64,000 nucleotides of DNA from Terrabacter tumescens (lineage in GTDB: Bacteria > Actinomycetota > Actinomycetes > Actinomycetales > Dermatophilaceae): assembly GCF_014646815.1 (NCBI RefSeq), contig NZ_BMNZ01000004.1:150437-214436 (forward strand), given 5' to 3'. A program made the translations under genes and the position numbers. The notes under the pieces were generated by a model. The model did not search any database. It saw nothing but the letters and a program-made list of their open reading frames with translations, and had not been told where the DNA came from. Shown piece by piece: positions 2,899-30,890 of this stretch. How positions within the stretch are numbered: position 1 is the stretch's first letter; each line of letters opens with the position of its first letter.

Positions 2899-3630
2899 TC
2901 AGGTGGTGGCGGGGCGCCAGCCGCGGGGACGCACCGAGACCATGTCGACGCTCGCGTCCGGGCCCGCGTCGATGGCCAGACGGGCGGCGCGGACGACCGA
3001 GGCCACGTCGAGGTAGGCGCCCGCGTCGTAGTCGGCGCCCTCGAACGCGACGAGCTCGTGCTGCATGTCGGTGTCGACCCGACCCGGGTGCAGCGAGGTG
3101 ACGCGGACGCCGTGCTCGCGCTCCTCCTGGCGCAGCGAGTCGCTGAACGCTCGGAGCGCGAACTTCGACGCGCAGTAGGCGCCTGAGGCCGGCGTCGCCG
3201 TCAGGCCCGATCCGGAGTTGACGGTGATGACGAGGCCGTGGGCGGCGCGCAGCGCCGGCAGCAGGGCCCGGGTGACGGCCGCGACGGCGACGACGTTGAC
3301 CGTCATCGAGTCGGCCCAGTCCTGCACGGGCGAGTCGGCCACGGTCCCGGTGCGGAGGATCCCGGCCGAGTGGACGAGCACATCGGCCCGGGGGAGACGG
3401 GGCACGAGCGCGTCGAGGGCGGTCTCGAGCGACCCGCCGGGTGAGCAGTCCGCGAGGTCGGCCACCAGCCCCTCGGCGGAGGGGAGCGACGCGACGACCT
3501 CGGCCACGGTGTCCGCGCTGCGCCCGCCGATGACGAGGTGATGGGTGTCTGCGAGGTCGCGGGCGACGGCCAGCCCGATCCCACGGGTTCCACCGGTCAC
3601 CACGGCCACGGGGCGCGTCTGCTCACTCAT
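2899..3630 (-). CDS. SDR family oxidoreductase
   Basis: 243-residue classical short-chain dehydrogenase. The NAD(P)-binding TGGTRGIG motif is at residues 12-19, HSAGI corresponds to the NAG motif near 87, a catalytic Ser lies in VNSGSG near 138, and YCASK gives the YxxxK pair near 152. The basic residue in the glycine motif hints at NADP(H). Substrate unknown. It is transcribed alone, converging on the TIM-barrel gene. Downstream it ends on the shared terminator; upstream lies a stretch of palindromic repeats. Confidence 0.92.
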   Translation of the reverse strand: MSEQTRPVAVVTGGTRGIGLAVARDLADTHHLVIGGRSADTVAEVVASLPSAEGLVADLADCSPGGSLETALDALVPRLPRADVLVHSAGILRTGTVADSPVQDWADSMTVNVVAVAAVTRALLPALRAAHGLVITVNSGSGLTATPASGAYCASKFALRAFSDSLRQEEREHGVRVTSLHPGRVDTDMQHELVAFEGADYDAGAYLDVASVVRAARLAIDAGPDASVDMVSVRPRGWRPATT

Positions 3631-3661
3631 GACGCCACCCTACGAGCCCCCGCCCGACGGA

Positions 3662-3830
3662 CCCTCGAGTGGCCTCCCCGCCCCACGCGTCACACGCTCG
3701 AGCCGCCGCCAAGACCCTCGAGTGGCCTCCCCGCCCCACGCGTCACAGGCTCGAGCCACCGAGGCGTGTGACGACGGGGCCACTCGACGGGGTGGTGGGG
3801 GTCGGCGGTGTGACGACGGGGCCGCTCGAC
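3662..3830. repeat. Intergenic GTCGAGTGGCC-type palindromic repeats
   Basis: Two near-identical direct copies start at 3662 and 3715 (period 53) with CCCTCGAGTGGCCTCC, followed by CGCCCCACGCGTCACA and a GCTCGAGCC end. Facing them is the complementary arm GGGGCCACTCGAC near 3776-3788, and a second GTGTGACGACGGGGCC half is at about 3809-3824. The arms match the arrays near 15.5 kb and 62.9 kb. The stretch lies between the SDR start and the CoA-transferase end and has no coding sense. Confidence 0.8.
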
Positions 3831-3869
3831 GAGGGGGAGGCGGACGGCATACGCGATCGGTGGTGCTTC

Positions 3870-5096
3870 TCAGGCGAGGCCGAGGGCCTGCGCCTCCTCC
3901 CAGAGGTCGTCACGGACGCGCGGGTGCGCGCACTGCTCGATGATGTCGCGGCACTGGTCCTTCTCGCTGCGTCCCCAGAGCGGCGCCACACCGTGCTCGG
4001 TGACGATGGCGCTCTGCTGGAAGCTCGTCACCGGCTCGTCGAGCAGCGGCACGATCGTCGACACGTCGGCCTTGGGGTGCCACGAGCGCAGCGCGATGAA
4101 CGACTGGCCGCCGGGGGAGTGCAGCGCGCCGACGATGAAGTCGGTCTGGCCGCCGAAGCCGGAGTGGATGCGGGCGTTGATGCGCGAGGCGTTCGCCTGC
4201 CCGAAGAGGTCGACCTCGAGGGCCGTGTTGACCGACGTCATCTGTCGCTGCGAGGCGATGAGACCGGGGTCGTTCGTCTTCTCGGTGCGCATCATCCGCA
4301 CGCGCGGGTTGCCGTCGAGCCACTGGTAGAGCTCGGCCGATCCGAAGCAGAACGAGGTGACCAACGGCTGGTCGGGGTCGAGCGCCCCGGCCGCGTCGAG
4401 CGCGAGCACGCCGTCGGAGAACATCTCGGTCCACATCCGGATGCCGCGCCGCGACGTCAGTCCGGCGAGGGTGGCGTCGGGCACCGCGCCGATGCCGAGC
4501 TGCATCGTCGCGCCGTCCTTGACCATGGCCGCGACGCGCTCGCCGATGAGGCGGCTCTCGGGGTCGGGCGGGACGGCGGCGTGCGAGGCCATGGGCGAGT
4601 CGACCTCGACCATGAGGTCGATGTGGTCGAGCGGCACCTCGGCGTCGCCGAACGTGTAGGGCATCTGCGGGTTGACGACCGCGACGACGAGCCCGCCGCG
4701 GGCGCGGCACGCCTCGAGCGCCGCAGGCAGCACGTTGACCTCGAGGCCCATGCTCACCTGGCCGTGGCGCGGCGGCGCGCAGTGCAGCAGCACGGCGTCG
4801 GGCGGCAGGGCACGGCCGAAGAGCAGTGGGACGAGGGAGAGTCGTGAGGGCACGTAGCGCATGCGCGGGTGACGACGCATCCCCGGACCGACGAAGCACG
4901 TCTCGACCGTCACGCCCTCACGCGTCGGCAGCCCTGCGGGCGCGTTGAGCGCGTGGAGCACGTAGGTCGGCTGCGCGGCGTCGAGCGCCCGGACCGCCTC
5001 CCACGGGACCGCCATGTTGCCGCTGACGACGACACGGGGGTTCTCGGGCAGGGTCCGCAGCCGCTGGGTGAGCTCGTCGATCGTCGCCGTCCGCAC
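3870..5096 (-). CDS. Acetyl-CoA hydrolase/transferase family protein
   Basis: About 408 residues of the CoA-transferase family I (acetyl-CoA hydrolase, 4-hydroxybutyrate or succinyl-CoA:acetate CoA-transferase type). The region MWTEMFSDGVLAL holds the glutamate that forms the acyl-CoA thioester, with GIGAVPDATL before it and SGFGGQTDFIVGA after it for CoA binding. It moves CoA between short acids in the cytoplasm; the acid pair is not predictable. I prefer the GTG at 5096 because AAGGA lies 7 nt upstream on the minus strand and family members start near RTATIDEL. An in-frame ATG at 5141 would add 15 residues. Repeats follow the stop. Confidence 0.88.
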   Translation of the reverse strand: MRTATIDELTQRLRTLPENPRVVVSGNMAVPWEAVRALDAAQPTYVLHALNAPAGLPTREGVTVETCFVGPGMRRHPRMRYVPSRLSLVPLLFGRALPPDAVLLHCAPPRHGQVSMGLEVNVLPAALEACRARGGLVVAVVNPQMPYTFGDAEVPLDHIDLMVEVDSPMASHAAVPPDPESRLIGERVAAMVKDGATMQLGIGAVPDATLAGLTSRRGIRMWTEMFSDGVLALDAAGALDPDQPLVTSFCFGSAELYQWLDGNPRVRMMRTEKTNDPGLIASQRQMTSVNTALEVDLFGQANASRINARIHSGFGGQTDFIVGALHSPGGQSFIALRSWHPKADVSTIVPLLDEPVTSFQQSAIVTEHGVAPLWGRSEKDQCRDIIEQCAHPRVRDDLWEEAQALGLA

Positions 5097-13751: not shown

Positions 13752-14562
13752 GGTGACCATGTCCGAGCGGCTGCGCCCCTACCGCGTGCTGCTCGCCTCG
13801 CGCGCCCGCGCCCAGATGCAGTACCGCGCGTCGTTCGTCACCGACATCCTCGGGACCGTCGGCGTCGGTCTCGCGGAGTTCGCCGAGGTGTGGGTGATCT
13901 TCCACAACGTCGACGTGCTCGGCGGGCTCGACTTCACCGCAGCGCTGCTCGTCTTCGCCCTGTCCAACCTCGCCTTCTCCCTGGCGGACATGTTCGTCGG
14001 TCACCTCGACCAGCTGCCGCGCTACATCCGGGCAGGTCAGGTCGACGCGTTCTACGTGCGCCCCCTGCCGCTGCTCGCCCAGCTCATGACGAGCGACCTG
14101 TCGCTGCGCCGGGTGGGTCGCCTGACGGTCGCCCTGGTCGCGCTCACCGTCGCGCTGACGACGGCCGACATCGCGTGGTCCGTCGGGACCGTGGTCCTCA
14201 TCGTGCTGACGGTCGTCAGCGGCACCGCGATCTTCTCCGCGCTCTTCACAGCCGCCGGCGGCCTGCAGTTCTTCCTCGTGGACGGCGCGGAGTTCACCAA
14301 CGCCTTCACCTACGGCGGGTCGTATGCCGCCCAGCAGAGCCAGCAGGTCTTCCCCGACCCGCTGCGCATCTTCTGGACGTTCGTCATCCCGACCGCCTTC
14401 GTCGCCTACATCCCGGCCGTGGCCATCCTCGGCCTGCCGGGTGACCACCTCGCGCCGCCCTGGCTGGCCTGGTGCACGCCCCTCGCGGCCCTGCTCGCGT
14501 GGGCCATCGCCGGCCTCTGCTGGAGGCTCGGGACCCGTCACTACCAAGGAGCCGGCGGATGA
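13744..14562 (+). CDS. ABC-2 family transporter permease (second subunit)
   Basis: 272 residues, six predicted spans, homologous in layout to the preceding permease: RVLLASRARAQMQYRASFVTD near the start, LPRYIRAGQVDAFYVRPLP in the loop, then hydrophobic segments to the end. A GGAGG at 13733-13737, 6 nt before the GTG, decides the start; the overlap with the previous gene implies coupled translation. The ATPase gene overlaps its stop by 4 nt (ATGA). Together the two permeases form a heterodimeric pore. The substrate is unknown; homologous systems have been linked to drug or lipid export. Confidence 0.88.
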   Translation: MAEVTMSERLRPYRVLLASRARAQMQYRASFVTDILGTVGVGLAEFAEVWVIFHNVDVLGGLDFTAALLVFALSNLAFSLADMFVGHLDQLPRYIRAGQVDAFYVRPLPLLAQLMTSDLSLRRVGRLTVALVALTVALTTADIAWSVGTVVLIVLTVVSGTAIFSALFTAAGGLQFFLVDGAEFTNAFTYGGSYAAQQSQQVFPDPLRIFWTFVIPTAFVAYIPAVAILGLPGDHLAPPWLAWCTPLAALLAWAIAGLCWRLGTRHYQGAGG

Positions 14563-17718: not shown

Positions 17719-19050
17719 TCACGCGACGCGGGAGGCCGCCCGCACGAGGGAGCGCGACGCCAGCACGGAGGCCAGCACGACCGCTCCGGCGACCACCGAC
17801 GTGACGACGAAGCGCACGACGAGCGCGGTGTCGATGGCGTTGGTGAAGGGCAGCATGAGCACGAGGACGAACCCCGCGGACAGCACGACCGTCATGGCGA
17901 GCGGCAGGGCGACCTCGAGGGCGCGGGCCCGGTGCAACGAGCCCTCGCTCGTGCCGGCGAGCGCGAGGGCGCGGTACTGCTCGCGCTGGTCGAGCACGCG
18001 GGCAGCCTGCACGACCCCCGTCGACGTGGCCCCGACGATCGTGATGATGACGAGGGTGACGAGCGCGCCCGTGCCGAGGTCGTCCGCGAGGTAGGCCTCG
18101 AGCGGGGTCCGCGGCTCGTCGACCTGCGCCAGGCTCGTGAAGCCGACCACGGCGACCGCAAGGCCCAGCGCCCCGACCGCGCGCCACGTGCTCTTCGGGT
18201 CGTCGGCGATGCGTCGGGCGGCGAGCAGCGTGGCCGCGGTCGGCGCGAGGCGGGCGGCGATGCGACCGGCCACCATGACGACCCAGGGGCCGACCGCGTT
18301 GACCGCGAGGATCACCGCGCCGAGCACGACGACGATGGTCATCCGCTGCGGCTCCTTCATCGGGGTGATGACGAGCACCCACGCCGCACCGGCGGCCACG
18401 GCGACGAGCAGGCGCAGGACGCTGAGCCGCTTCGGGCTCGTGCGGGCCGCGACGCCGAGCGGGCTTATGGCCACGCGCGCCAGGCTGGACGCGCCCGACA
18501 GGACCGAGACCACGACGACGGCCGCGACGACGGCGAGGACCTGCCCCAAGGGGAGCACGAGCTCACGCAGCTCGAACGGCCGCCCCTGGAAGCTCAGACG
18601 CGCCACGAGCGGCAGGACGGCGAGGTAGAGCACGAGACCGCACAGCGCGCCGACGAGGGCCTGCGCCGCGGCCTCGGCGAGCGTCATGAGCGTCACCTGG
18701 CCCGACGTGGCGCCGGCCAGGCGCAGCGCCGCGAGACGCTGGTCGCGACGCGCGATGGCTAGGCGGGCGGCGACCCCGCCGAGGGTGAGGATCGGGATGA
18801 CCATGCACGTCGTCGCGACCCAGGCAAGGGTCACGTAGAGGTTGCCGAGCGCTGCCTCATCGGTCAGGGGCCCGTCGAGGCCACCGGGCGGCGTCGGGTT
18901 GCGGGCCTCGAAGGCAGCCAGTCCGGCGACGCAGACGAGCAGCGCCGCCGTCGCGACGGCGAAAGAGACGACGGCCAGGACGCCCGGCACGCGGTTGTCA
19001 GCGGCCCCGGCCCGTCGCAGGCGCCACCACAGAACGGTCGCGGCCCTCAT
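17719..19050 (-). CDS. FtsX-like permease family protein
   Basis: 443 residues with about eight to ten hydrophobic segments and the FtsX domain signature TLGGVAARLAIARRDQRLAALRLAGAT near residue 95, repeated in simpler form in the C-terminal half (VLDQREQYRALALAGTSEG), so the protein is internally duplicated. It is the membrane subunit of a MacB/LolCDE-type (type VII) ABC system, which use mechanical force rather than substrate passage through the membrane. It overlaps its ATPase gene by 4 nt. The following LCP and GNAT genes are probably co-transcribed. Function not known. Confidence 0.85.
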   Translation of the reverse strand: MRAATVLWWRLRRAGAADNRVPGVLAVVSFAVATAALLVCVAGLAAFEARNPTPPGGLDGPLTDEAALGNLYVTLAWVATTCMVIPILTLGGVAARLAIARRDQRLAALRLAGATSGQVTLMTLAEAAAQALVGALCGLVLYLAVLPLVARLSFQGRPFELRELVLPLGQVLAVVAAVVVVSVLSGASSLARVAISPLGVAARTSPKRLSVLRLLVAVAAGAAWVLVITPMKEPQRMTIVVVLGAVILAVNAVGPWVVMVAGRIAARLAPTAATLLAARRIADDPKSTWRAVGALGLAVAVVGFTSLAQVDEPRTPLEAYLADDLGTGALVTLVIITIVGATSTGVVQAARVLDQREQYRALALAGTSEGSLHRARALEVALPLAMTVVLSAGFVLVLMLPFTNAIDTALVVRFVVTSVVAGAVVLASVLASRSLVRAASRVA

Positions 19051-19841
19051 CGCGCGCTGCCTGGGCTCGCCTGTGCCGCAACGGTTCCGGTCGCGATCCT
19101 GCCGTCACGCACCCGGAGCACCCCGTGGCACCACCGGGCGACGTTCTCGTCGTGCGTGACGACGACGAGTGAGGCGCCGGTGTGGGCCGCGAGCCGGGTC
19201 AGGTGCTGCATGACCTCGGCGCTCGTCGTCTGGTCGAGGGCGCCGGTCGGCTCGTCCGCGAAGACGACGCCGGGCCGCGCGACGAGGGCCCGGGCGATGG
19301 CAACGCGCTGCGCCTGGCCGCCCGAGAGCTCACCGGGACGTCGCTTCTCCAGGCCCGCGAGACCGAGCGGGGCGAAGAGGGCAGCGGCCCGGCCCGAGGC
19401 CTCCGAGCGGGAGACGCCGTCGAGCATGAGCGGTAGCGCGACGTTCTCGATCGCCGGCAGCTCTGGCAGGAGCATGCCCTGCTGGAAGACGAAGCCGAAG
19501 TCCCGGCGGCGCAGCACGGTGCGCTCGCGGTCCGACATCCGCGCGATGTCCCGGCCGCGCCACAGCACCTGGCCACCCGTCGGGCGCAGGATGCCGGCGA
19601 GCACGTGCAGCAGGGTCGTCTTGCCGGAGCCCGACGGGCCCATGACGGCCACGCTCTCCCCGGCGCGCACCGTCACGTCGACGCCGCCCAGGGCCGGGGG
19701 ACCGGCCGCGCTCGAGCGGCCCGAGCGGCCGTAGGTCATGACGAGGTCGCGGGCGACGAGGTCGCGGGCGGGATCCTGAGCGGGATCGCGGGTGGGGTCA
19801 GGGGCGGGGGCGGCTGTCGCCGTGGGGTCGTGGTGGCTCAT
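19047..19841 (-). CDS. ABC transporter ATP-binding protein (MacB/LolD type)
   Basis: 264 residues. Walker A GPSGSGKTT near residue 72, the Q-loop in FGFVFQQGMLLPELPAIENVALPL, signature LSGGQAQRVAIARALVARP near 170, Walker B VVFADEPTGALD and switch His in VVVTHDENVARW. The ENVALPLML segment is typical of ATPases that partner FtsX-like permeases. The first 35 residues are a Pro/Asp-rich extension of low complexity. On the minus strand GACGCT sits 7 nt before the ATG, consistent with a leaderless start of the four-gene operon running to the GNAT gene. Confidence 0.9.
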   Translation of the reverse strand: MSHHDPTATAAPAPDPTRDPAQDPARDLVARDLVMTYGRSGRSSAAGPPALGGVDVTVRAGESVAVMGPSGSGKTTLLHVLAGILRPTGGQVLWRGRDIARMSDRERTVLRRRDFGFVFQQGMLLPELPAIENVALPLMLDGVSRSEASGRAAALFAPLGLAGLEKRRPGELSGGQAQRVAIARALVARPGVVFADEPTGALDQTTSAEVMQHLTRLAAHTGASLVVVTHDENVARWCHGVLRVRDGRIATGTVAAQASPGSAR

Positions 19842-24571: not shown

Positions 24572-26734
24572 ATGCCAGCCAAGCGTCGTTCGACGGGTCG
24601 AGGCAAGCCGACGCAGCCGAGCTCCCAGTGGGAGCCGGTCTTCACCAGCGAGGCCGACACCGTCATCCCGGGTGAGCTCCTGCTCACCCTCGTCCCGTCC
24701 GCAGCCGACTCGATGACCGCGTCGGTGCCGGTCCACCCGTCCGGGCCGGTCGAGTCCGGCGCCCGGTCGCTCGGCGTCGACGACCTCGACACCGTCCTGG
24801 CGCGCCTCGGCGCCCACGACGTCACGCGACTCGCCCTGCCCGGTCCCACCGGCGCCGCCGAGGCGGACGCCGCCACCCGGGGGCTCGAGGTGACCGAGGA
24901 GCAGGTGCTCGCGCGGTCGTTCAGGGTGCGCGTCGACCTCCGAACCGACATCGCCGACGCGGTGGCGGAGCTCGAGGCGCTCGACAGCGTCGAGGCCGCC
25001 GAGCCGAACCGCTACCGCGAGACGTCGGTCGTGCCCAACGACCCGAGCTACGGCTCCGAGTGGGGGCTGGCCAAGATCAACGCCCCCGCCGCGTGGGACC
25101 GCACCACGGGCTCGGCGAGCGTCGTCGTCGGCGTCATCGACACCGGCATCGACCTGGACCACCCGGACCTCGTCGGCAACATCGTCCCGGGCTACGACAT
25201 GGTCGACCTCGGGACGAGCCCCACCGCGCCGGCCGGCTTCCGGTTCGAGGGCGACTTCTCCGGTCGCGACTCCGTGCCCGAGGACGAGGTGGGCCACGGC
25301 TCCCACGTCGCGGGCACCATCGCAGCGATGTCCAACAACGCGCTCGGGGTCGCCGGCGTGACGTGGCAGTGCAAGATCATGCCCGTCAAGGCGCTGACCC
25401 GGATGGTCCGGATCTCCGACGGCCAGGTCCGTGGCGTCGGCTCGTCCGCCGACATCGCCGCCGCGGTGCGCTACGCCGCCGACAACGGGGCCTCGGTCAT
25501 CAACATGAGCCTCGGCTCGTCGGGCACGACCACCGTCGAGAGCAGCGCCATCGCGTATGCCATCAGCCGCGGCGTCGTCGTGGTGGCCGCGATGGGCAAC
25601 GACGGCACGTCGAACCCGTCGTACCCCGCGGCCTACCCGGACGTCGTGTCGGTCGGCGCGATCGACAGCGCCGACCACCGCGCGTCCTTCTCGCAGACCG
25701 GACCGCACATCGACGTCGTCGCACCCGGAGTCGGCGTCCTGTCGACCTACCTCGCAGCCGGTTACGGCACCCTGTCGGGAACGTCGATGGCGACGCCGCA
25801 CGTCGCCGGCGTCGCGGCCCTCATCCGGTCGGTCAAGCCGAGCGCGACGGTCGCCGAGGTGACGGACATCCTTCGTACGACGGCTCGCCCGCTCCGTGAC
25901 GCCCCCGGCGACCCGGTCCCCAACGATTCGTACGGCTGGGGCTGCGTCGACGCGGCCGCGGCCGTGAACCGGGCCGCGCCCATCTTCACGAGGCTGCGGA
26001 CGCCGGTCCTGCCGTGCCGGCCGCCGCTCACGCTCCCGCCGATCTGTGGGCCGATCCGGACGCCGATCCAGTTCTGCCCGCCGCCGCGGACGATGATCTG
26101 CCCGGTCGTCTCCCCGGCGTGCCCGCCGACGATCACGCCGGTCACGACGACCCCCATCACCAGGACTCCCGTGACGCCGACGATCGGCCGGCCCGGGCTG
26201 GGCGGCGGCGCCGGAGCAGCGGGGCCCGCGGGCTACGACCCGTACGGCTACCTCGGAGGCGCGGGCCAGGTGCCCGAGGAGCAGGGCGCATCCGAGGGGC
26301 AGGGCGGCAGCTACGAGGAGGGCTACGCCGACGGGTATGCCGCGGCGCTGGCGCAGGTGCAGCAGGAGCTCGGTTCCGAGCAGGGAGTCGACGGCGGGGA
26401 GACCGCCGGAGGCGGTGGGAACGACGAGATCGGCTACCAGCCCGGGCCGTTCGTCCGGCTGCGCACCCCGGTGCTCGCCTGCATCCCCATCACGACGATG
26501 ACGCCTCCGAGGTCGCCGTACTGGTGGCGGTGCCCGCAGCCGCCTCGCACCGTGATCGAGCCGCAGTGCTACCAGGTCACGCCCACGCCGTGGACGATCA
26601 CCCCGACGATCACGACGACGTTCCCGCCGACCGGGCCGACGACGCCCGTCCAGGGTGGTCCCGGCGGCTTCGAGGGTGGCCTCGGCGGCTACGGCGGCTA
26701 CGACCCCTACGGGCAGTCTCCCTTCCAGGGCTGA
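24572..26734 (+). CDS. S8 family serine peptidase with duplicated Thr/Cys/Pro-rich C-terminal tails
   Basis: 720 residues. AAGGAGG 5 nt before the ATG fixes the start. There is no signal peptide: the N-terminus is basic and polar. Residues about 30-150 look like an inhibitory propeptide ending EAAEPNRY. The subtilisin domain (about 155-470) has catalytic Asp190 (GVIDTGID), His242 (GHGSHVAGT), oxyanion Asn343 (AMGNDG) and Ser405 (LSGTSMATPH). After the domain come two related segments, at residues 472-540 and 627-693. Each begins with RLRTPVL plus Pro or Ala and a Cys, and is rich in Thr, Pro and Cys (Cys482, 492, 502, 510, 517; Cys637, 654, 666). Each is followed by a Gly-rich linker with YDPYG. 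The three genes downstream encode a lanthionine-forming set, so these tails are candidate modification substrates (inference). Confidence 0.93.
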   Translation: MPAKRRSTGRGKPTQPSSQWEPVFTSEADTVIPGELLLTLVPSAADSMTASVPVHPSGPVESGARSLGVDDLDTVLARLGAHDVTRLALPGPTGAAEADAATRGLEVTEEQVLARSFRVRVDLRTDIADAVAELEALDSVEAAEPNRYRETSVVPNDPSYGSEWGLAKINAPAAWDRTTGSASVVVGVIDTGIDLDHPDLVGNIVPGYDMVDLGTSPTAPAGFRFEGDFSGRDSVPEDEVGHGSHVAGTIAAMSNNALGVAGVTWQCKIMPVKALTRMVRISDGQVRGVGSSADIAAAVRYAADNGASVINMSLGSSGTTTVESSAIAYAISRGVVVVAAMGNDGTSNPSYPAAYPDVVSVGAIDSADHRASFSQTGPHIDVVAPGVGVLSTYLAAGYGTLSGTSMATPHVAGVAALIRSVKPSATVAEVTDILRTTARPLRDAPGDPVPNDSYGWGCVDAAAAVNRAAPIFTRLRTPVLPCRPPLTLPPICGPIRTPIQFCPPPRTMICPVVSPACPPTITPVTTTPITRTPVTPTIGRPGLGGGAGAAGPAGYDPYGYLGGAGQVPEEQGASEGQGGSYEEGYADGYAAALAQVQQELGSEQGVDGGETAGGGGNDEIGYQPGPFVRLRTPVLACIPITTMTPPRSPYWWRCPQPPRTVIEPQCYQVTPTPWTITPTITTTFPPTGPTTPVQGGPGGFEGGLGGYGGYDPYGQSPFQG

Positions 26735-26737
26735 GTC

Positions 26738-27934
26738 GTGACCCTCGTCGACACGATGCCGGGCGGGCCGTTCGCGACCCGCCCGGTCCCGGGGCGTCCC
26801 GTCCCGGCTCACGCCCCGGCGCTCGCCCCCGCCCCGGCGCGCGCCGCGGGCCCGAGGGGCACGGCCGGGTCCCCGGACGCCCGCCATCCGGCCGTCCGCG
26901 CCCTGTGCGACCTCGGCCTGCTCGACCCCGAAGCCGGCGCGTCGGTGCAGGTGGAGAACCTCTCCCGCGCCCACCCGGTCTGGTCGGTCCTGATGCCCGA
27001 CGGTCGCCGGCTCGTCGTGAAGTCCAGCGCCGCCGAGCGCGGGCTGGACCTCGGGATCGAGTTCCTCGTCTACCGGCTCGGGGTGTGGTGCGACCCCGTG
27101 CGCCACGTCCTGCCGGACGCCCTCGTCGTCGACGAGGACCGGCACCTGCTCGTGCTCGCGGACGTCCGGGCGCCGTCCACGGCCGGCCCGCTCACCGGCC
27201 GGTCCACCGGAACGGGCGCGCCGACGGGGTCGCTCGCCGAGCAGGCGGGCTGGCCCGTCCTTGTCCATCCGACGTCCGTGGTCGGCCTGTCGACCTCGGC
27301 GCTCGCCGCCGCGACGCGGGCCCTCGGCGCGACCCTGGGCGCACTGCACCGGGGGACCATGGGCCTGCCGCTCCCGCCGGCGCGTCCACCGGTGGTCCTT
27401 GCGGCGCTGACGGCCGACTACCCGGCCACCGGGGCGGTCGCCGACCACATCGCCGTCCTCAAGGCAGACCCGCTGCTCAACGAGGCTGCCGGCACCGTCG
27501 CCGGCCCGGTCACCGGGTGCCTCGTCAACCACGACATGAAGTGGGACAACGTCGTGTCCTCCGGTGGTCGCACGGTCCTGCTCGACTGGGAGATGGCCGG
27601 ACTCGGCGACCCGGCGTGGGACCTCGGCTGCCTGCTCGCCGAGCACCTCGTACGACAGCCGGGAGAGACGCTGACCGTCGCGTCCGACGAGGCTGCGGTC
27701 GCGCTCCTGCGCGGCTACGCGCAGGGTGCCCGCCCCCGCGCGGAGATCGTCCCCGTCCTCGCGCGTCGGGCCGTGACCGTGGCCGGGCTGCGCATCGCCC
27801 AGCTCGGTCTCGAGGTCGTCGACTCCCTCGGCCCGCACCGGCCGACCGCCCCCGGCCGGCTCACCGAACGAGCCCGCTCCGTCCTCCTGTCGCTCGACTC
27901 CCTCACCGAGGAGGTGGCCCAGTGCCTGCACTGA
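26738..27934 (+). CDS. APH-like kinase of a class V-type lanthipeptide synthetase
   Basis: 398 residues, aminoglycoside phosphotransferase fold. RRLVVKSSAAE holds the ATP-anchoring Lys95, CLVNHDMKWDNVV is the Brenner loop (His265, Asp266, Asn271), and LLDWEMAGLGDPAWDLG carries the metal-binding Asp283. In class V lanthipeptide clusters such as lexapeptide, a stand-alone kinase of this family works with a HopA1-like protein to dehydrate Ser/Thr. Both that lyase and a LanC-like cyclase are encoded directly downstream. The GTG is 3 nt after the subtilase stop with AGGG upstream; an ATG at 26756 is an alternative. The first 45 residues are Pro/Ala-rich. An unrelated small-molecule kinase role is less likely given the context. 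Confidence 0.88.
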   Translation: MTLVDTMPGGPFATRPVPGRPVPAHAPALAPAPARAAGPRGTAGSPDARHPAVRALCDLGLLDPEAGASVQVENLSRAHPVWSVLMPDGRRLVVKSSAAERGLDLGIEFLVYRLGVWCDPVRHVLPDALVVDEDRHLLVLADVRAPSTAGPLTGRSTGTGAPTGSLAEQAGWPVLVHPTSVVGLSTSALAAATRALGATLGALHRGTMGLPLPPARPPVVLAALTADYPATGAVADHIAVLKADPLLNEAAGTVAGPVTGCLVNHDMKWDNVVSSGGRTVLLDWEMAGLGDPAWDLGCLLAEHLVRQPGETLTVASDEAAVALLRGYAQGARPRAEIVPVLARRAVTVAGLRIAQLGLEVVDSLGPHRPTAPGRLTERARSVLLSLDSLTEEVAQCLH

Positions 27935-28923
27935 CCCGCACCCGCCCACCCGTGACGCCCGCCCCGGCCGCGGCCGACGACCCCACCACGCGGTCCCTGG
28001 CCGCGCTCGGTCACGCCGTGCGACTCGTCGGGTCCGACCCGTGGGCGGCCGCGCAGGCCGCGGCGTCGTCGGGCGACGTGCGCATCGACCACCCGGTGGC
28101 CGAGTGGCTCTACCCCCGCTGGTGGTGCGGGTCGGACGAGGTCTCCGTCTCCCTCGGCAGCGACCCGCTCATCGGCGCGCTCCTCGAGGCGTCCCGCCGT
28201 TCGGTGGCGCCGGTCGAGACCGCGCACCTCGTCCTGGCCAGCGACGCGGCCCACGTCGTCGCGGCCTGCACGCAGGGGCCGTCGCGAGGCTCGGTCGTGC
28301 GCCGCGCCGCCGACGCCGTCGTCGGCTCCTCGAGGCCGGGTATGCCGGCTCGCCCGGGTGATCTCGTCGACGTCCTCGCCGGGGTGGGTGAGGTCGACCC
28401 CGAGGGCGCGTGGTGGTGGGCCCACACGGGCGAGCAGCCGATCTCCTCGGTCGAGCTCGACCGCTGGTACGTCAATGTGGACGCCGGTGCTGCACCCCGG
28501 GTGGTGGCCGCCACGGTGCGTCTGGCCGTCTCGACGCGGGTCCCGCTCTCGCTCAAGTGCCCGGCCCGGGCGGGCGGGTTCGCGCGGCGCGACGCGCTCG
28601 TCGTCTACGTCCCGAGGCCGGACTCCGCGCGTCTTGCCGCTGCGCTTCCCGGCTGGATCGAGGAGATCTCGGGTGCCCTGACGGCGGACGAACCCCCGCT
28701 GACGCGACGCCTGCACCCGGGGGTGGGGCTGGCGCAGGACCCGGGCGGCGGGATCAGCTACGGCCAGCTGCGGTGCGCCCAGGTGGCGTCGGCCGTGGCT
28801 CGCGTCCTCGGCGAGGCACGCGGGGACGTGACCGAGGCCGAACGCCTCGCTGCCGGCGACGGTGTGGCCGTGCTCGCAGGCGTCGGCATCCACGCCCACC
28901 GGCCCGAGGAGGTGGCGGCATGA
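27922..28923 (+). CDS. T3SS effector HopA1-like protein (putative phospho-Ser/Thr lyase)
   Basis: 333 residues. Family landmarks are HPVAEWLYPRWWCG (residues 57-70), DRWYVNVDAGAAPRVVAATVRL (180-201), VPLSLKCP (207-214), RRDALVVYVPRPDS (222-235) and RRLHPGVGLAQDPGGGISYGQLRC (262-285). These match the HopA1 domain, whose relatives in OspF/class III-V lanthipeptide systems eliminate phosphate from pSer/pThr to give dehydroamino acids. GAGGAGG 7 nt before the GTG fixes the start, which overlaps the kinase gene by 13 nt. The next gene overlaps its stop by 4 nt. In this setting it should act on substrate phosphorylated by the upstream kinase (inference). Confidence 0.87.
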   Translation: MPALTRTRPPVTPAPAAADDPTTRSLAALGHAVRLVGSDPWAAAQAAASSGDVRIDHPVAEWLYPRWWCGSDEVSVSLGSDPLIGALLEASRRSVAPVETAHLVLASDAAHVVAACTQGPSRGSVVRRAADAVVGSSRPGMPARPGDLVDVLAGVGEVDPEGAWWWAHTGEQPISSVELDRWYVNVDAGAAPRVVAATVRLAVSTRVPLSLKCPARAGGFARRDALVVYVPRPDSARLAAALPGWIEEISGALTADEPPLTRRLHPGVGLAQDPGGGISYGQLRCAQVASAVARVLGEARGDVTEAERLAAGDGVAVLAGVGIHAHRPEEVAA

Positions 28924-30308
28924 CGACCACGTCCGCCCTGTCCAGGACCGGGGCTGCGAGGAGCGGGGAGGACTCCGAGTTCGCAAGCGCGGCAAAGTCG
29001 CTCGTGACCCGCCTCGTCTCGCTCGCCCGCCTCGACGCGTGGGGTGCGCCGGTGTGGAGCGGCGACGACATCGACCCGCGCTCGGCGCCCGACCTCAGCT
29101 CCCCGCCGATGCTCGTCCACGGACCGCTCGACGACGGGCTCCTCACCGGCAGGGCCGGCATCGCCCTGGTCCTCTCGGCGGCCTCGCGCCTGCCGGGGGC
29201 CTCGGCGGAGTGGGCGCCTCTCGCGGTGCGCACGGCTGAGGCAGCGGTGCGGCGTGCCGCGTCCGACCTCGGTCCGCACGGGCAGCCGGGTGGCGAGATC
29301 GGCTGGGACAGTGGAGCCCTCGGGATCTCGCGCGCAGCGACGGTCGTTGCCGCCGCACACGGATCGGCTGAGCTGGCCGAGAGGTCGCGTCACCTCGGAG
29401 GGCTCGCGGTGCGGCGGGTCGTCGACCACCCCGAGGGGCTGCCCCCGTACGCCGACCTGATGGGCGGCCTCGCCGGCATCCTCGCCGGTGTCATCTCCGT
29501 CTCCCTCTCGCCGTCGGACGAGAGCGCCCGGGCAGATTCCATCGCTCTGCTCGTCGACCGGATCGGTGCGCTCTCCCTGGCCGGGCCCATCGGTCGGCTG
29601 TGGCCCATGGCCGGCTCCGACCACGGGGTCGTCGGGCTCGCCCACGGCGGCAGCGGCATCGCCCTCGCACTGACCGCAGCCGCCCAGCGCCTCGGCGGGT
29701 CCGAGTGGCCGCCGAGTGGGCCGGGCACGCCGGCGCAGGCCGCGTCGCTCGCCTCCGCCGCCGTGCTCTGGGAGGACTCCCTCCACGACGCGGGGGCCGG
29801 GGGCTGGCCGGACCTCCGACTGCCCGAACCCGTCCCCGGGCTCGCCTGGTGCCACGGTGCGCCCGGTGTCGGGGTGTCCGCCGCCCTGCGTCACCCGCTC
29901 GTGGCGGGTTCCGGTGCGGGGGCCCGGGACGCGGCGGCCGCGCACGTGGCCTTCGTGCGGGCGCGGGCCGCCAGCGCCGCCCACCGACCTGTGGGCCTGC
30001 GCCCCTTCGACGGGTCGCTCTGCCACGGCCTGGCCGGCGTCGTCGAGATGCACCTGCTGGCGGCCGGGGCCTGGCCGGCGGCTGCGCGCGAGCACGTGGC
30101 CGAGGCCCGGGCGGTCGCAACCCGCCTCACGCGGGCGGGACGGCCCGGGCGCCCGACGTGGCAGTGCGGCATACGCAGCGGTGGGCGCAGCCCCAACGTC
30201 CTCGTCGGCATCGGCGGCGTCGCCCTGACGCTCGCCCGGTGCCACGACCTGTCGGTCGCGCCGTCGGCCGCCGACCCCTTTCTCGGGGCCCTCGCGCCGA
30301 GGGGCTAG
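28920..30308 (+). CDS. LanC-like lanthionine cyclase
   Basis: 462 residues of the LanC alpha,alpha-barrel. The zinc ligands are all present: Cys311 in AWCHGAPGVG and Cys368-His369 in SLCHGLAG, matching NisC Cys284/Cys330/His331. GLAHGGSGIA (His242) corresponds to the catalytic His region, and SPNVLVGIGGVALTLAR is the last barrel repeat. LanC enzymes add Cys thiols to dehydrated Ser/Thr to form (methyl)lanthionine rings. The ATG overlaps the HopA1-like gene by 4 nt. Its TAG stop shares the palindrome CTAG with the stop of the convergent small gene. With intact ligands it should be active. Confidence 0.92.
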   Translation: MTTTSALSRTGAARSGEDSEFASAAKSLVTRLVSLARLDAWGAPVWSGDDIDPRSAPDLSSPPMLVHGPLDDGLLTGRAGIALVLSAASRLPGASAEWAPLAVRTAEAAVRRAASDLGPHGQPGGEIGWDSGALGISRAATVVAAAHGSAELAERSRHLGGLAVRRVVDHPEGLPPYADLMGGLAGILAGVISVSLSPSDESARADSIALLVDRIGALSLAGPIGRLWPMAGSDHGVVGLAHGGSGIALALTAAAQRLGGSEWPPSGPGTPAQAASLASAAVLWEDSLHDAGAGGWPDLRLPEPVPGLAWCHGAPGVGVSAALRHPLVAGSGAGARDAAAAHVAFVRARAASAAHRPVGLRPFDGSLCHGLAGVVEMHLLAAGAWPAAAREHVAEARAVATRLTRAGRPGRPTWQCGIRSGGRSPNVLVGIGGVALTLARCHDLSVAPSAADPFLGALAPRG

Positions 30309-30628
30309 GAGGTCGAGCTCCAGCCCGCGGAGGGCGCGGTTGAGTCGCCCGGGCCCCGGTCCGCGGGCTCTGACTCGGACTGGGACTGGGACTGGGGCTC
30401 GGACTGGGTGTAGCGCAACGCGTCCACCTCGGCGACCGACACCCCGTCGACCGACTGGGCGTCGCGCACGAAGGACTCGACCGCGTCGTCGTCGACCTCG
30501 GCGACCGCGACGTCGGGCAGCTCCGGCGCGGGCGCGTGCACCGTGGAAGGCCCGAGGGCACGCAGGGCGCGGACGACCTCCTCGGGGTCGGACTCGCCGG
30601 ACAGGGTCACGAGCACACGGGTCGCCAT
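30305..30628 (-). CDS. Small subtilase-propeptide (I9)-like protein with Ser-rich tail
   Basis: 107 residues, no signal peptide and no Cys. Residues 4-74 fit the beta-alpha-beta-beta-alpha-beta pattern of peptidase inhibitor I9 / subtilisin propeptides: RVLVTLSG, DPEEVVRALRALG, VAVAEVDDDAVESFVRDAQS and GVSVAEVDALRY. The rest is a hydrophilic tail (QSQSQSESEPADRG, then APSAGWSSTS). It converges on the LanC-like gene, and the two stop codons overlap in CTAG. The upstream minus-strand sequence GACAAT lies 6 nt before the ATG (leaderless). I infer a trans-acting inhibitor or chaperone for the cluster's subtilase. The Ser-rich tail could also be modified, but without Cys no ring could form within it. 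Confidence 0.72.
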   Translation of the reverse strand: MATRVLVTLSGESDPEEVVRALRALGPSTVHAPAPELPDVAVAEVDDDAVESFVRDAQSVDGVSVAEVDALRYTQSEPQSQSQSESEPADRGPGDSTAPSAGWSSTS

Positions 30629-30706: not shown

Positions 30707-30890
30707 CTTCTTCGCCCGGGCGGACGTCGTGAATCGCGAGGCTGGTTCCGACCACCATTTCTCCGCCGGGGCGGGTTGTCGGGGTGTGGGTGCTGGTTCC
30801 GACCACCATTTCTCCGCCGGGGCGGGTTGTCGGGGTGCGGGTGCTGGTTCCGACCACCATTTCTCCGCCGGGGCGGAGCTGCCGCGGTCA
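30707..30890. repeat. 51-bp-period palindrome array, four copies with nearly identical spacers
   Basis: TTTCTCCGCC-type cores start at 30707 (diverged), 30758, 30809 and 30860, spaced exactly 51 bp. The last three units, from 30741, share almost all 51 bases including GGTTCCGACCACCA, so they arose by recent tandem duplication. The core is the same as in the arrays at 22.9 and 24.2 kb on the far side of the subtilase cluster. The array runs into the end of the deaminase gene. Confidence 0.85.

Follow-up and report, generated by a model that had tools for sequence, protein, structure and literature searches.

A class Vb-type lanthionine operon of Terrabacter tumescens with a protease tail as its probable substrate

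Known lanthionine-forming enzymes act on short peptides with a leader that can be cleaved off, and an operon that encodes a set of such enzymes beside a protease, with no short precursor in sight, raises the question of what these enzymes modify. Such an operon (24572–30308) lies in a 64,000-nt stretch of the Terrabacter tumescens genome (GCF_014646815.1, contig NZ_BMNZ01000004.1, positions 150,437–214,436 of the forward strand), referred to here as the window, whose own numbering is used for its features. It encodes, in this order, an S8 protease, an APH-like kinase (LanK type), a HopA1-like lyase (LanY type) and a LanC cyclase. An earlier note on this DNA had described the four-gene row with junctions of +3, −13 and −4 nt, which was borne out, and had proposed that the protease tail is what the enzymes modify, a proposal now supported by the comparison of related operons. 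Judged from sequence comparison, the protease of this operon is very probably itself the substrate of lanthionine formation, the target of a class Vb machine that acts on its tail. This reading is favoured because the same enzymes stand behind proteases of two unrelated folds, the tail cysteines keep a register with Ser/Thr residues and most tails share a sequence element, and because tail and enzymes are jointly absent in homologues and no precursor gene lies nearby.

The enzymes themselves are of a known kind. The four proteins scored above the curated Pfam cut-offs (Peptidase_S8, E = 3.9e-59; APH, 8.7e-11; HopA1, 6.7e-17; LANC_like, 6.8e-27), and all catalytic positions examined in the enzymes were present, with the exception of one kinase histidine. 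Lys95 and Asp283 of the kinase were found as the note had claimed, but the HxDxxxxN motif it had also listed is not exact, as the loop reads N-H-D-M-K-W-D-N, with Asn at the canonical His place and His one position later. Lys95, Asp266, Asn271 and Asp283 are kept in all 27 operons of the comparison set described below. The zinc ligands claimed for LanC (Cys311, Cys368 and His369) were confirmed, together with His242, and are kept in relatives, being intact in 26 of the 27 operons; the exception is most likely L037, in which a contig end truncates LanC.

Arg181, Lys212, Arg222 and Tyr229 of the lyase, also kept in 27/27 operons, match the four active-site residues of CaoY, for which Arg187, Lys219 and Arg229 are reported from mutation and Tyr236 from alignment to SpvC (PMC9486802); the steps between these residues are 31, 10 and 7 positions in the window lyase and 32, 10 and 7 in CaoY. 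The AlphaFold model of the lyase (mean pLDDT 89) had three chain-B entries of the lexapeptide dehydratase LxmKY as its top PDB matches (E 5.5e-13 to 3.7e-12, TM approximately 0.5), followed by two Pseudomonas syringae effector structures and then by class III synthetase chains (E >0.001), and in a profile search of PDB sequences the LxmKY lyase chain was the sole match at E 0.01. The HopA1-like enzyme of the window is a LanY. All three components of a class Vb machinery were found, namely a stand-alone LanK of PF01636, a LanY of PF17914 and a LanC with zinc ligands. The choice of lexapeptide as the example in the earlier note was wrong, since lexapeptide belongs to class Va, which has no LanC, and the combination of LanK, LanY and LanC is that of class Vb, as described in PMC12291118.

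The window protease carries the S8 motifs DTG190, HGSHVAG242 and SGTSMA402, and its Peptidase_S8 domain scored 200.8 bits; against the type VII secretion mycosin model TIGR03921 it reached 208 bits, below the cut-off of 278.75. Inspection by eye revealed no signal peptide. Eight of its ten cysteines lie within the last 250 residues, where spacing suggests five candidate pairs in a first segment (T477–C482, T487–C492, T497–C502, T507–C510 and S514–C517) and three in a second (T632–C637, S648–C654 and T660–C666), the two putative ring blocks being parted by Gly-rich linkers. The S8 protein of Intrasporangium oryzae is 95 % identical over the first 470 residues and 74 % identical in the tail, in which 8/8 cysteines are kept. 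AlphaFold, run on the whole window protein with a three-row alignment, gave a mean pLDDT of 30 and no usable model.

A set of 27 distinct operons, including that of the window, was assembled by requiring a tail-bearing protease directly before kinase, LanY and LanC. It was drawn from a LanY search of 149 genomes of the same family, a contig scan that gave 40 loci and a search that covered 396 genomes of the order, and loci that had been fetched twice (e.g. L018/L033 and L071/L138) were counted once. The members, among them Knoellia, Janibacter, Serinicoccus, Arthrobacter, Cellulomonas, Nocardioides and Intrasporangium, comprise six operons with an S8 protease and 21 with an unrelated protease of the NAL1/trypsin-like type. 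Three NAL1-type proteases submitted to Pfam gave nothing above cut-off, two of them with weak NAL1 and trypsin matches, and a profile of this type matches NARROW LEAF 1 and streptogrisin chains in the PDB; one of the tails reads TRPIVSCLNTRLVVCNITRPVACLFTRSAGC. The note had expected a thioether-stapled subtilase; the tail is supported as substrate, but the arrangement is not special to subtilases and extends to NAL1-type proteases.

The sources of the set differ in how often the arrangement occurs. LanY was present in 16 of the 149 family genomes, and in every one of these a tail protease precedes the same kinase–LanY–LanC row; the protease in first position is S8 in two (the window and I. oryzae, G021) and another protease of approximately 440–500 aa in 14. 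The contig scan yielded tail proteases at 19/40 loci (two S8, 17 NAL1). The search of the order matched 19 genomes, of which eight were family members already in the set and three gave new S8-type operons (L132, L133 and L139); among the rest, one repeats L071 (NAL1), five have no tail protease (L134–L137 and L140), L141 has ordinary precursors and L142 was not assigned. Fair counts of tail proteases are accordingly 16/16 in the family, 19/40 in the contig scan and 4/11 for the non-family genomes of the order. The earlier note had foreseen that a neighbourhood survey would tie the S8 gene and its tail to the three enzymes; this holds for the tail protease in the family, only two cases being S8, but not for distant relatives of the enzymes that lack such a protease.

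In a FastTree phylogeny of the three joined enzymes, the 27 operons formed a single clade (support 1.0) that excluded six outgroup loci. The NAL1 type (support 0.99) is nested among the S8 types because L139 branches first, and on this one tree the S8 protease is probably the older partner, which would have been exchanged once. The S8 tails of L132 (10675–12546) and L133 (5401–7275) have 17 cysteines each, the highest number of the set, in CPSxxxxC-like repeats, and L139 contains a further S8 gene (3416–4771), divergent from the tail-bearing S8 gene of that operon.

The tails, which contain from four to 17 cysteines, follow a register. A cysteine was scored as having its own Ser/Thr when at least one Ser/Thr lay between it and the previous Cys, within eight positions and with at least one residue in between, and this applied to 238/238 tail cysteines (65/65 in S8 tails and 173/173 in NAL1 tails). 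Shuffles in which the cysteines were kept fixed gave a mean of 45.4 and a maximum of 54 for the S8 tails, and a mean of 139.0 and a maximum of 152 for the NAL1 tails, the observed value being reached in 0/2000 in each case. The Ser/Thr mostly lies five or six residues before its Cys: enrichment was found at C-5 and C-6 (z 4.9 and 2.8 for S8; 7.7 and 5.0 for NAL1) and depletion at C-7 (z −3.6 and −5.6, respectively). As a general control, 35 distinct called proteins with at least seven Cys in 110 aa were scored, the window S8 tail being too spread to enter. Among these, 18 tail proteases reached 100 % and L139 reached 11/12, one pre-tail Cys included, while of the other 16 proteins 14 reached 22–86 % and two reached 100 %; the latter two (L142 7816–12204 and L132 163–4815) are Ser-rich and look like wrong-frame calls.

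The tails of both protease types also share an element, GYxAALxxV, present in 24 of the 27. All 21 NAL1-type tails have it close to the C-terminus, behind the putative rings, and three of the six S8 tails have it as well. A matrix built only from the NAL1-type copies of the element gave 14.2 bits for the window S8 tail, a score reached by none of 5000 tail shuffles, and the next best of the 61 called window proteins scored 5.5 bits. As the proteases are unrelated and yet the element is common to them beside the rings, recognition by the common enzymes is suggested, and GYxAALxxV is regarded as a candidate recognition element. A likeness of this element to ordinary class V leaders was considered and dropped, since the scores of three precursors were reached by 348, 486 and 2807 of 5000 shuffles.

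Homologues of the proteases were examined for the tail and the enzymes. Among 394 genomes of the class, 31 NAL1-like matches in 30 genomes were found, and at the 30 loci examined (a second match in G318 was left out) neither a Cys-rich tail nor an enzyme match was present within flanks of approximately 1.5 kb or less. The 149 family genomes contained 15 close NAL1-type orthologues (E <1e-100), 14 of which have both tail and enzymes; the fifteenth, in G139 (L170 7748–8836), stops 21 residues past its catalytic domain, and the 16 kb at this locus contain no enzyme matches. Five more distant NAL1-type matches in family genomes had no Cys-rich tail, and seven further S8 homologues of the family had no Cys after the matched region, some of them being ended by the locus edge. 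Tail and enzymes are, as judged from these loci, absent jointly and present jointly in the NAL1-like family.

The claim that there is no separate precursor gene held for positions 14001–42000 of the window. A filter for open reading frames (ORFs) of 25–150 aa whose final 50 residues contain three or more Cys, each having a Ser/Thr of its own, and whose GC content at third codon positions is at least 0.70, passed four ORFs there, all of which overlap called genes and none of which was judged plausible. The short leader–core precursor of a class Vb natural product was thus not found in a scan limited to ORFs with at least three Cys near the end.

Several observations weigh against the protease tail being the substrate. 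The set was assembled by the presence of a tail protease before the enzymes, so that 27/27 with a tail is partly by construction, and the operons are related and non-independent. Likewise, Cys-fixed shuffles break up repeat structure, so that repeats copied as whole units raise the count, and together with the kinship among operons this means that the shuffle result overstates the independent evidence. The S8 tails of L132, L133 and L139 have no GYxAALxxV and score no better than shuffles, and the kinase reached only 35 bits against the NCBIfam LxmK equivalog NF038156, the cut-off of which is 315. The arrangement is not seen at 21 of the 40 contig-scan loci, which were left out of the tail statistics. 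Among them, L038, L040, L041 and L042 have a precursor-like ORF of 95 aa with six Cys, at the alphaproteobacterial loci L035, L036, L043 and L046 LanC is followed by an S8 gene that has no Cys-rich tail, and those beyond these eight mostly show no clear layout. In the order, L134–L137, all of one genus, have LanY and a LanC-like gene, with no kinase match beside them and no tail protease. In L135 and L137, the C-terminal part of the LanC-like protein has GHG in place of the expected CHG. L140, on a short contig, has LanY alone, with neither kinase match nor tail protease. These five loci may represent decayed or different systems.

The precursor-like ORFs just mentioned, together with two of 69 aa in L141, adjoin relatives outside the clade, and they lend some weight to the view that the true precursor is unlinked and encoded elsewhere, the protease being its leader peptidase and the tail an unrelated disulfide or metal-binding region. 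The limited span of the precursor scan and its restriction to Cys-rich ends are compatible with this view. Disulfides or metals, on the other hand, do not call for a Ser/Thr assigned to every tail Cys, tail and enzymes are jointly absent in NAL1-like homologues, and an alignment of the Knoellia group shows that in L058 one 8-residue ring unit is missing whole. An unlinked precursor is considered very unlikely.

If the tail is the substrate, the enzymes would bind it via the GYxAALxxV element, the kinase would phosphorylate the Thr/Ser preceding each Cys, and the HopA1-like enzyme would eliminate the phosphate to give dehydrobutyrine or dehydroalanine. LanC would then add the Cys thiol, which in the window protein could produce as many as eight (methyl)lanthionine rings, arranged as two blocks. 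The sequence might instead stop short of rings, with the tail being only phosphorylated or dehydrated, or with a LanC-like protein that does not cyclise, so that reversible phosphates or dehydro residues would remain. The steps are separable, as class Va is described as having no LanC and one ring there is reported to close non-enzymatically (PMC12291118); the conservation of all LanC zinc ligands in 26/27 operons and of the Thr–Cys spacing as a pair speaks for ring closure, and an outcome without rings seems very unlikely.

A more difficult question is whether the modified tail stays on the protease. It may be released, in which case the protease domain would be an oversized leader and its own maturation peptidase, cutting itself to free one or more class Vb lanthipeptides. 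Class V precursors are described as having N-terminal leaders before the core (PMC9486802), the protease to which the putative substrate is fused has its triad motifs intact, and Gly-rich linkers separate the candidate ring blocks of the window protein. Against this, there is no transporter in the operon, the predicted rings of NAL1-type tails begin within approximately 20 residues of the catalytic domain, with the element C-terminal to them, and a cysteine number that varies as widely as it does here is more in keeping with a structural repeat than with a bioactive peptide of fixed form. Release by self-cleavage is a serious rival, possible rather than probable. We lean modestly towards a ringed tail that would stay attached, a stiff and reduction-proof appendage of a cytoplasmic enzyme, because no signal peptide was recognised, the operon has no transporter, the rings would lie near the catalytic domain and their number is variable. 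The full picture, in which active cytoplasmic proteases of two unrelated folds would bear permanent C-terminal rods of thioether rings made by a dedicated LanK–LanY–LanC set that reads a C-terminal element, is given an even chance.

The system resembles class Vb lanthipeptides, such as mSmoA, in its three stand-alone enzymes, from which (methyl)lanthionine chemistry is expected (PMC12291118). It differs from them in that there is no short precursor and the enzymes would act on the C-terminal part of a protease (approximately 440–720 aa), where the candidate recognition element follows the putative ring blocks or lies between them. With class Va (lexapeptide LxmKYXD and cacaoidin CaoKY) it shares LanK and LanY, the lyase fold and the Arg/Lys/Arg/Tyr residues; class Va, in contrast, is described as lacking LanC and as having short precursors with an N-terminal leader (PMC12291118, PMC9486802). 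A survey of class V accepted only ORFs of fewer than 110 residues as precursors (PMC9486802), and tail-protease systems would therefore have been passed over. The NHLP and Nif11 precursor families, with their long, enzyme-derived leaders (PMC2887384), are similar in that a substrate of the ribosomally synthesized and post-translationally modified peptide type sits on a protein-like N-terminal part. The N-terminal part in the present case keeps the protease triad motifs. In NHLP and Nif11 precursors, the enzyme-like part is the leader. A protease as a lanthionine substrate was not recognised in the titles and abstract openings of the papers that searches of an open-access library brought up, and subscription print may contain a description; as far as seen, the enzymes are of a known kind and the substrate is new.

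If true, the reading would extend lanthionine chemistry to enzyme maturation, explain operons that have been overlooked by precursor-based genome mining and provide enzymes with which protein C-termini could perhaps be stapled as desired. Lanthionine chemistry would here build enzymes, with rings replacing disulfides in the reducing cell, rather than secreted peptides, which bears on whether lanthionines ever serve structurally in proteins.

The features of the operon are collected in the table below. The S8 gene is preceded by a good ribosome-binding site, GAAGGAGG, and the operon LanC is the one LanC-like match in the window genome.

Table. Features of the tail-protease operon and examples of the TPR-CHAT module (window positions unless a locus is named)
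Feature	Position	Strand	Remarks
S8 (subtilisin-like) protease	24572..26734	+	720 aa; Asp190, His242, Ser405 in canonical motifs
Peptidase_S8 domain	25118..25942	+	residues 183-457; Pfam
Ring segment 1 of S8 tail (candidate)	26000..26122	+	residues 477-517
Shared element GYADGYAAALAQVQQEL in S8 tail	26321..26371	+	residues 584-600
Ring segment 2 of S8 tail (candidate)	26465..26569	+	residues 632-666
APH-like kinase, LanK type	26738..27934	+	398 aa; predicted tail Ser/Thr phosphorylation
HopA1-like phospho-Ser/Thr lyase, LanY type	27922..28923	+	333 aa
LanC cyclase with zinc ligands	28920..30308	+	462 aa
Convergent 107-aa ORF, I9/subtilase-propeptide-like by eye	30305..30628	-	ORF call
CHAT/sigma/S8-like module, examples	L051 717-6080; L149 4119-9572		L149: window genome, contig C8

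The convergent gene that the earlier note had called propeptide-like is a real ORF, although no Pfam family matched it at E 0.1 and its I9 likeness is by eye. Its clear homologue is found only in I. oryzae (L033, 3e-40), and in five of the six S8-type operons, including L132, L133 and L139, LanC has a similar-looking ORF next to it. It probably encodes a stand-alone subtilase propeptide or inhibitor.

Most NAL1-type operons (17/21) face a divergent module that encodes a TPR-CHAT protein, a protein of approximately 165 aa, an extracytoplasmic function (ECF) sigma factor and an S8-like protein, the last containing Gly-rich repeats (GYGQGV, GLYWGGQGG) in those relatives whose sequence was inspected. 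L058, one of the 17, shows only a fragment of the module before the contig end, and L057, L065, L071 and L072 are without it. Craspase is a TPR-CHAT protein with an ECF-sigma circuit, and the likeness to it lies in the TPR-CHAT protein and sigma factor beside most NAL1-type operons; the module of the window genome lies on another contig, with no lanthionine genes there. In L134–L137 and L140, LanY adjoins a CHAT/sigma/S8-like module. A defence-system reading was dropped, as the PADLOC matches for the window S8 protein were subtilase and IetS only; the S8-like protein of L051 is a subtilase match in PADLOC.

The operon lies among housekeeping-like genes (for ClpC, a deaminase, a methyltransferase, an FMN dehydrogenase and proline metabolism). 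The note's statement that no transporter is visible is correct for the operon itself, but an FtsX-like permease (18001–19050) and an ATP-binding cassette ATPase (19047–19841) are encoded on the minus strand approximately 5 kb upstream, past clpC, and nothing ties them to the operon. Behind the operon, at approximately 30730–30870, intergenic short tandem repeats are visible as recurring peptides in several frames. A repeat protein of the QTISFAQP/PGTISFAQ type with few Cys precedes a kinase–LanY fusion, LanC and S8 in L035 (2730–3317, Azospirillum) and L036 (6702–7379, an alphaproteobacterium) and is possibly another large repeat substrate; in L046, repeated DNA occupies the place of this gene in another frame.

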